In this document: piece by piece, positions 1 to 1,017 of the stretch | Layout: every line of letters begins with the position of its first letter | Position numbering within the stretch: position 1 is the stretch's first letter | IMG/VR virus record: IMGVR_UViG_3300032323_000176 | Span: 1-40,227 of that record | Length of the DNA: 40,227 bases | From: a virus | Direction: 5' to 3' (one strand) | The notes under the pieces: model-generated | The model's database searches: none | Seen by the model: the letters and a program-made list of their open reading frames with translations, nothing else | What the model was told of the DNA's origin: nothing | Program-made: the position numbers and the translations under genes

Positions 1-909
1 AGAAACTTCTTGTCCTCTAGTTGAATCGTTGGGATCTCCATAGTAGCCAACAGCATTTGCAACTCTTTGTCCTTCAGGAGCTACTACTTGAACGAAAGAA
101 CCTTCATTTGTTACTGTTGCACCCTCTGGTATAAAAGGTGGAGTAGTGGTTGGGGTTGGTTCTGGTGTAGGAGTAGGTTCTGGAGTTGGCTCAGGACTAG
201 GCTCTGGCGTAGGCTCTGGTGTTGGTTCTGGTGTGGGTGGATTAAATGGTGCTTCTTCTGTAGGTTCTGGAGCTAGCTCTGGGGCCTGTTCTGTTTCTTG
301 AATTCCATAGGTCTCAAAGTCAACAATGCTTCCGTCATTTAAACGTACACCAGTTCGTGGATTGTTTTGAGGGTACTCTGGACCACTTAGGGTATAAGCC
401 ATTGCAACTGTGCCATCAGAAAGAATAGCAGCAGTAATTACAATACGTGTTGGATCTGGAGTATTCTGCAACCAAATAGGTCTAGCTGAAATGTCTACCT
501 GAAATCCACCATCTGATGAACGAATGATTAGATGTTCGTCAGATCTCCACTGAGGGTATACAACCCAGTCAAAAGAATAAAGCGAAATAGAAGGGGTTGA
601 CGGATAAGTCCAATAAGTTCCATCTGGACGACCAAACGTAATTACTGAGTTAGTGGTAGCAAAGATATTGCTGTAAGTTACTCCGTCAAAAGTTACGGTA
701 GTTGTCAATGGGATCTGGTAAGAGGTATCGTCTCCACCACAAGTGGCTATTTCAGTAACCACTGGCTCAGTTGAAGCATTTTGTTGTGCAGCTGCAACAG
801 CAGCAACTTGTCCAGGGCTAACACAGTTAGCGTGGGCTGCGTCAGATACGACAAAGAGTGGGCCAAAAGATAAAGCTGTTGCTAGTAAGATTCTGTTTAA
901 ATGTTTGAT
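1..909 (-). CDS. Secreted protein with NIDO-like domain and PEP-repeat stalk (3' end outside window)
   Basis: Open from position 909 to the left edge (303 codons, no stop). Read from an ATC codon at 909-907, the protein begins with Lys-2, Arg-6, a hydrophobic stretch at 7-21 and an AHA cleavage site after residue 27, a textbook Sec signal peptide. There is no ATG, GTG or TTG in frame between the upstream TAA (927-925) and residue 50. An AAGGAG ribosome site at 923-918 lies 8 bases before the ATC. Residues 58-176 form a beta-rich, aromatic-rich domain (motif VTYSNIFATTNSVITFG) resembling nidogen-type adhesion domains. Residues 214-259 are a Pro-Glu-Thr-rich stalk, followed by another beta-like segment. 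Cys-29 and Cys-57 could form a disulfide. No lipobox is seen. It follows nrdF behind a terminator and has its own promoter. An exported or surface protein is likely; its function is unknown. Confidence 0.75.
   Translation of the reverse strand, partial: MKHLNRILLATALSFGPLFVVSDAAHANCVSPGQVAAVAAAQQNASTEPVVTEIATCGGDDTSYQIPLTTTVTFDGVTYSNIFATTNSVITFGRPDGTYWTYPSTPSISLYSFDWVVYPQWRSDEHLIIRSSDGGFQVDISARPIWLQNTPDPTRIVITAAILSDGTVAMAYTLSGPEYPQNNPRTGVRLNDGSIVDFETYGIQETEQAPELAPEPTEEAPFNPPTPEPTPEPTPEPSPEPTPEPTPTPEPTPTTTPPFIPEGATVTNEGSFVQVVAPEGQRVANAVGYYGDPNDSTRGQEVS
141..243 (-). repeat. Tandem PEPT/PEPS codon repeats
   Basis: A run of degenerate 6- and 12-base units on the minus strand (CCA/CCT, GAR, CCN, ACN) encodes alternating Pro-Glu-Pro-Thr in residues 223-256 of the secreted protein. 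It is a rigid extended linker, like stalks of bacterial surface proteins. Codon third positions vary between units, so selection appears to act on the peptide. The repeat count may vary between strains. Confidence 0.85.
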
Positions 910-917
910 TCTGGGGT

Positions 918-923
918 CTCCTT
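918..923 (-). promoter_or_regulatory. Ribosome binding site that fixes the ATC start
   Basis: AAGGAG lies 8 bases upstream of the ATC codon at 909-907. The spacing is ideal, and no conventional start codon lies within reach in any frame that would give the signal peptide. Confidence 0.7.
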
Positions 924-949
924 GTTAGTGGGGTAGGTCTAACAGGACT

Positions 950-978
950 ATTATACCATATCTTTATACGAACAAAAA
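950..978 (-). promoter_or_regulatory. Extended -10 promoter for the secreted-protein gene
   Basis: The minus strand carries TGG-TATAAT, with the hexamer at 955-950 and the extension at 958-956. The best -35 at 17 bases spacing is the weak TTTTTG (978-973), which overlaps the U-tract of the nrdF terminator. Predicted transcription start is near 943, giving a leader of about 34 bases that contains AAGGAG. Confidence 0.6.
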
Positions 979-1000
979 AAGGCACCCATTTCTGGATGCC
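974..1000 (-). terminator. Rho-independent terminator after nrdF
   Basis: On the minus strand GGCATCC (1000-994) and GGGTGCC (987-981) form a 7-bp stem with one G-U pair and a 6-base loop, followed by seven Ts (980-974). It lies 18 bases past the nrdF stop and closes the RNR operon. Confidence 0.85.
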
Positions 1001-1017
1001 CTTGATGTTTTTAGTTT

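Follow-up and report, generated by a model that had tools for sequence, protein, structure and literature searches.

The start of a secreted-protein gene

Can a secreted-protein gene of a phage start at ATC, and what would such a start codon do? The question is raised by a minus-strand gene at the edge of a virus contig of 40,227 bases, analysed over its whole length and hereafter called the window. The minus-strand letters of the start region read AAGGAG (923-918), ACCCCAGA (917-910) and ATC (909-907), followed by the codons AAA CAT TTA AAC AGA ATC. An in-frame TAA stop lies five codons 5' of ATC, and the earliest in-frame ATG, GTG or TTG is a GTG at 762, i.e. residue 50, where ORF calling with table 11 places the start. 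The first-pass annotation, made from the letters of the window, had therefore described the locus correctly: an ATC start with AAGGAG eight bases upstream and AAA as second codon, and no ATG, GTG or TTG from the upstream TAA to residue 50. The Shine-Dalgarno sequence AAGGAG (SD; 918..923, minus strand), 8 nt from the start codon (907..909, minus strand), gives a computed duplex energy of -8.3 kcal/mol with the anti-SD.

The signal peptide proposed at the same time, with its AHA site, is also there. It spans residues 1-27 (829..909, minus strand) and reads IKHLNRILLATALSFGPLFVVSDAAHA, ending in AHA, with cleavage before N. Judged from sequence and hydropathy, it has the basic n-region, the hydrophobic core and the AxA site of Sec-secreted proteins. 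The window copy of the gene meets no stop before the window edge, hence its 3' end is missing.

Start codons of the relatives

The 303-residue translation of the window gene was used as a query against IMG/VR and found at least 80 relatives; a profile search of IMG/VR reported 239, of which the best 80 were inspected. No homologues were found in INPHARED phages or in cellular genomes (GTDB). The comparison with related genomes that had been suggested as a check gives ATA, ATT or ATC at the position of the window ATC, with a strong SD before it and a TATAAT 30-45 nt upstream. The more distant relatives (best 80 of 239, profile search) show the same picture. After AAGGAG, for example, the sequences are ATCATCATT in L138, ATCATCATC in L146, ATTATTATA in L147 and ATAATCATC in L150: the third base of the start codon varies between T, C and A and is never G. 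The SD duplex energies across relatives are mostly -6 to -9 kcal/mol, L006 and L007 being weaker.

Minority letters were counted within six groups of closely related sequences: the start codon has 0, 0 and 5 at its positions 1, 2 and 3. Over codons 2-16 of the same groups they number 92, 59 and 114 by codon position, and over the 30 upstream bases 137, 107 and 138. The codon-position bias thus begins at the AUH codon (AUA, AUU or AUC). The same start position and the retention of ATA, ATT or ATC in relatives exclude a chance origin of the ATC start, and on this comparative evidence the start of the gene at ATC is genuine.

The leader upstream of the ATC codon

By sequence prediction the ATC gene is a separate transcription unit with a terminator, an extended -10, a 5' hairpin and an SD, all on the minus strand. 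An intrinsic terminator after nrdB (978..1003; stem of 11 pairs, loop of 4, T tail, the T run reaching 974) would set the ATC gene apart from the operon for ribonucleotide reductase. The extended -10 element, TGGTATAAT, lies at 950..958; no -35 and no two-hexamer promoter match was found at the window leader. Transcription is predicted from the spacing to start at 943, 7 nt after TATAAT. Because the extended -10 would start transcription near this position, the hairpin GTTAG/CTAAC (924..943), directly before the SD, would form the 5' end of the mRNA. Hairpins at the 5' end often stabilise mRNA.

These elements recur in the relatives. TGN-TATAAT or TATACT is present in 59 of the 72 own-promoter leaders, and for 58 of the 72 a paired 5' end is predicted. 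The letters of the stem differ yet still pair in L020 (GTCAG/CTGAC), L029 (GTTAC/GTAAC), L055 and L149. No known riboswitch or RNA family was found in the leader at the gathering threshold. As read from these sequences, all leader features other than the start codon favour expression, and the start codon alone is weak.

The start codon follows the 5' module

To count start codons, genes were clustered at 95% and assigned an own promoter when they carry their own TATAAT upstream. The own-promoter counts were corrected by hand: L014 was taken as ATT, and L192, L197 and L261 were left out as chance matches or unresolved. About 70 own-promoter clusters comprise about 40 ATT, 16 ATA, 3 ATC and 11 TTG, with no ATG and no GTG, i.e. 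about 59 of 70 start with AUH. Homologues without the TATAAT promoter start with ATG in most cases. Within the N-domain set (74 rows) ATG is found in 0 of 49 genes with the promoter vs 13 of 25 without it (Fisher p 5e-8, taking no account of relatedness); for AUH the figures are 41 of 49 vs 5 of 25. Three of these five AUH genes without TATAAT (L009, L055 and L141) carry TATACT in the corresponding position. Two promoter-less genes, L017 and L027, may also use AUH.

On a tree of the own-promoter genes the start codon changes at least 11 times, and never to ATG. In independent tree pairs ATG always occurs in the expected direction, the pairs being too few to reach significance (median p 0.125). 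The N-domain of the window protein is 95% identical to that of L011, which has no promoter and an ATG start. Thus the start codon is tied to the 5' module rather than to the protein. Mature domains appear exchanged between 5' modules, near-identical N-domains being found either with promoter and AUH or in ATG operons.

The leader was also scanned for without specifying the start codon, using the pattern GTTAGN{3,18}CTAACAAGGAG over viral contigs. Where TATAAT precedes the hairpin and the gene can be resolved, nearly all matches lead to signal peptides starting at ATT, ATC or ATA; one group starts at TTG and none at ATG. Two exceptions, L192 and L261, are apparent chance matches outside the phage surface gene family. 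The matches without TATAAT are mostly chance ones in unrelated phages, and their callable starts are mostly ATG or GTG. The scanned leader precedes several different mature domains. Selection holding the AUH start in own-promoter phage genes appears the best explanation of these patterns.

Disparities nevertheless appear in the groups that use TTG, which include L025, L029, L039, L134, L149, L151 and L155. TTG is a canonical start, so by sequence the own-promoter genes are not strictly confined to codons rejected by IF3. In L179 and L180, as well as in L207 and L213, a two-codon frame, ATG CRA TAA, lies between AAGGAG and TTG and ends 1 nt before TTG. This frame is possibly another way of weakening initiation, through reinitiation.

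The AUH start is specific to this gene

A filter for AUH starts applied to 754 ORFs of the first loci returned essentially this gene alone. Over whole phage contigs of 108-112 kb it gave one match among the 117 ORFs of G023 and one among the 114 of G011, both being this gene. It gave none in the 126 ORFs of G002, whose copy of the gene has a weaker SD, and none in the window, where the ATC gene is open-ended and hence unscored. Other genes with TATAAT and SD on the same contigs (Hsp20-like, peptidase-like) start with ATG. Phage-wide usage of AUH was rejected, since these promoter and SD genes have ATG and the whole-contig scans yield this gene only. Secretion as the cause of the AUH start was rejected as well: a neighbouring secreted gene of the window (5458-4559), whose product has no match in Pfam or PHROGs, has AAGGAG followed by ATG.

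The phages and their plausible hosts

Gene content identifies the carriers, which are freshwater phages, as actinophages. WhiB is found in 25 of 28 carrier records, although a motif search did not find it in the window. Among the core genes, the DnaE-type polymerase and TerL of the window are 55% and 54% identical to those of large Streptomyces phages. The window has a GC content of 41%, and Nanopelagicales are plausible hosts. In nine Nanopelagicales genomes infC starts at ATC (eight) or GTC (one), with a strong SD before it, and the AUH filter over 400 kb of Ca. Planktophila lacus gave infC and one spurious match. A LanE-43 genome of Ca. Planktophila type (L307) apparently has GTC instead of ATC as the infC start, after AAGGAG; GTC is also the start codon of Streptomyces sigR.

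No homologue of IF3 (IF3_C) was found in the 28 carrier phage records. Autoregulation of the infC kind proper was rejected, the product being a secreted stalk protein and not IF3.

A probable throttle on initiation and its alternatives

The first-pass annotation had left three readings of the ATC codon: a regulatory start limited by IF3 discrimination, a recent loss of ATG, or a base-call error. Conservation, gene specificity and the likeness to infC of the plausible hosts speak for the first; the other two fall, the recent loss because ATA, ATT or ATC is found in many diverged phages and ATG never with an own promoter. We consider it likely, on the comparative evidence, that the start codon throttles this secreted-protein gene of actinophages, with AUH held by selection and initiation limited by IF3 as in infC. 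The route of throttling would probably be the IF3 of the host.

When third-base pairing is poor, IF3 rejects the initiation complex (PMC10158994). In Streptomyces it represses non-canonical starts, e.g. the GTC of sigR, and infC itself starts at ATC (PMC5472188); in S. aureus, AUU and AUA starts with an extended SD lower initiation (PMC13009471). In the proposed mechanism each phage gene would have a separate extended -10 promoter, and its mRNA would begin with a hairpin and carry a strong SD in front of AUA, AUU or AUC. The initiator tRNA would pair with only two of the three bases of AUH. The strong SD would make initiation at AUH possible and rejection by IF3 would make it inefficient, so that the start codon would cap protein synthesis at a rate tied to the ratio of host IF3 to ribosomes, as for infC. 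We infer that the phage gene is weakly expressed. Non-canonical start, conservation and strong SD are what it shares by sequence with the IF3-discriminated class (infC, pcnB, sigR).

A weak start could also just cap expression at a constant low level, strong expression of a Sec-exported stalk protein being toxic or jamming export, and the level of IF3 would then carry no information. This explanation has a substantial chance, somewhat short of even, and the simplest interpretation is a constant cap with no switch. The replacement of AUH by TTG in the groups named above favours it, and the ATG-CRA-TAA frame before TTG in L179 and L180 suggests that any weak start suffices. Against it, a weaker promoter or SD would do, yet both remain close to consensus and the AUN frame persists; this argument is in turn weakened if any AUH start needs a strong SD.

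Throttling by IF3 could go further, the AUH start acting as a sensor of the ratio of free host IF3 to ribosomes, and the surface protein being made chiefly once IF3 runs short during infection. The host would set this ratio through its own AUC-started infC, and the phage would use the feedback code of infC as a timing switch. The TTG groups speak for a fixed cap over such a switch, for which the persistence of AUH with a strong SD still leaves room; we regard the switch as rather unlikely.

Very little speaks for a true start elsewhere, either at a downstream GTG or at an upstream start used through frameshifting or coupling. Gene finders do require canonical starts, and some relatives have an in-frame GTG GTG at codons 10-11. 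But a stop codon stands immediately 5' of the AUH start in several relatives (L006, L062 and L105), the downstream canonical codons fall within or after the hydrophobic core and have no SD, the promoter is too near for an upstream ATG, and the codon-position bias described above begins at the ATH codon itself.

It is slightly less probable still that an initiator or isoleucine tRNA encoded by the phages starts AUH at full efficiency. AUA, AUU and AUC are all isoleucine codons and tRNA genes are present in 18 of 22 records of these phages, the anticodon being CAT in some and TAT in two. In the CAT tRNAs examined the acceptor ends are paired and the anticodon stem lacks GGG/CCC, so they are of elongator or Ile2 type; no phage initiator tRNA was found among them. 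The window has no tRNA with anticodon CAT, and the remaining genes of these phages use ATG starts. The TAT tRNAs (isoleucine, reading AUA) of L316 and L332 lie beside a CAT tRNA.

A base-call error or a private loss of ATG, tenable only for one sequence taken in isolation, has a negligible probability, since dozens of contigs, independent of one another and drawn from many samples, share the ATH start.

Relation to known systems

Among known systems infC (AUU in E. coli, ATC in Streptomyces, AUA in S. aureus) likewise has a strong SD and an AUH start conserved among relatives, and in Nanopelagicales its start, AAGGAGCACAA-ATC, is near-identical to that of the phage gene. It differs in that it encodes IF3 and is autoregulated, whereas the phage product is a secreted protein and the carrier records examined lack IF3. 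Streptomyces sigR is alike in its actinobacterial setting, its genus-conserved non-canonical start and its extensive RBS, and changing this start to ATG raises expression in Streptomyces (PMC5472188). In contrast to the phage gene, sigR has GTC rather than AUH, encodes a cellular sigma factor and has been demonstrated experimentally. The cvfC1 (AUU) and ccpN (AUA) genes of S. aureus (PMC13009471) share AUH, a long SD and conservation, which for ccpN includes B. subtilis; these are cellular regulators, while the phage gene class extends over exchangeable proteins and includes each of AUA, AUU and AUC. As summarised in PMC13009471, expression of E. coli pcnB is limited by its inefficient AUU start (Binns and Masters 2002), a likeness to the phage gene although pcnB encodes a cellular enzyme.

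In the literature searched, with most subscription journals outside it, no earlier report of such an AUH start in this phage gene class was found. Initiation at AUU in a phage occurs at the internal start of T4 gene 26, but this start gives a shorter product in one phage and is not a conserved main start. As judged from sequence, the conserved, gene-specific AUH start of a phage gene class is thus a familiar type of control found in a new context. Elsewhere, AUH starts have been described for a small number of bacterial genes; this phage gene class retains AUH across many viruses and exchanged domains, with A, U or C as third base and G excluded. Dozens of natural sequences thereby become a resource on the requirements and purpose of AUH starts, and with this family it could be tested directly whether a virus exerts control through IF3. 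In practice, a gene finder that accepts ATG, GTG and TTG alone will miss the signal peptide or call a shortened gene.

The encoded protein

The signal peptide is followed by a beta-rich, family-specific N-terminal domain (residues 28-215; 265..828, minus strand), modelled by AlphaFold2 with a mean pLDDT of 86 and a pTM of 0.85, and then by the beginning of a Pro/Thr/Glu-rich stalk and the next segment (1..264, minus strand), cut by the window edge and identified from the translation and the full-length relatives. The latter have 390-770 residues and are laid out as signal peptide, variable N-domain, Pro/Thr/Glu stalk, GADMSPxxRExxEK, hydrophobic stretch and basic tail. The N-domain model has no fold match in the PDB; against viral models it gave one strong match (52% identical) and weaker ones, including cyanophage S-SRM01. 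Searches of Pfam and PHROGs with the N-domain gave nothing usable, with no Pfam family.

The last 75 residues of the C-termini contain no LPXTG, and instead a hydrophobic segment with an RR or RNGA tail. The class of sortase-anchored Gram-positive surface proteins was rejected on this ground. From its layout the product is probably a secreted, membrane-anchored stalked protein on the cell surface, for which receptor masking or blocking, or superinfection exclusion, would fit. GADMSPxxRExxEK is conserved before the hydrophobic stretch and the basic tail, in the absence of LPXTG, and might serve as a so far unrecognised signal for anchoring or sorting. In one relative (L003:2693-3601) the otherwise homologous frame is broken at about 177 codons by an in-frame stop.
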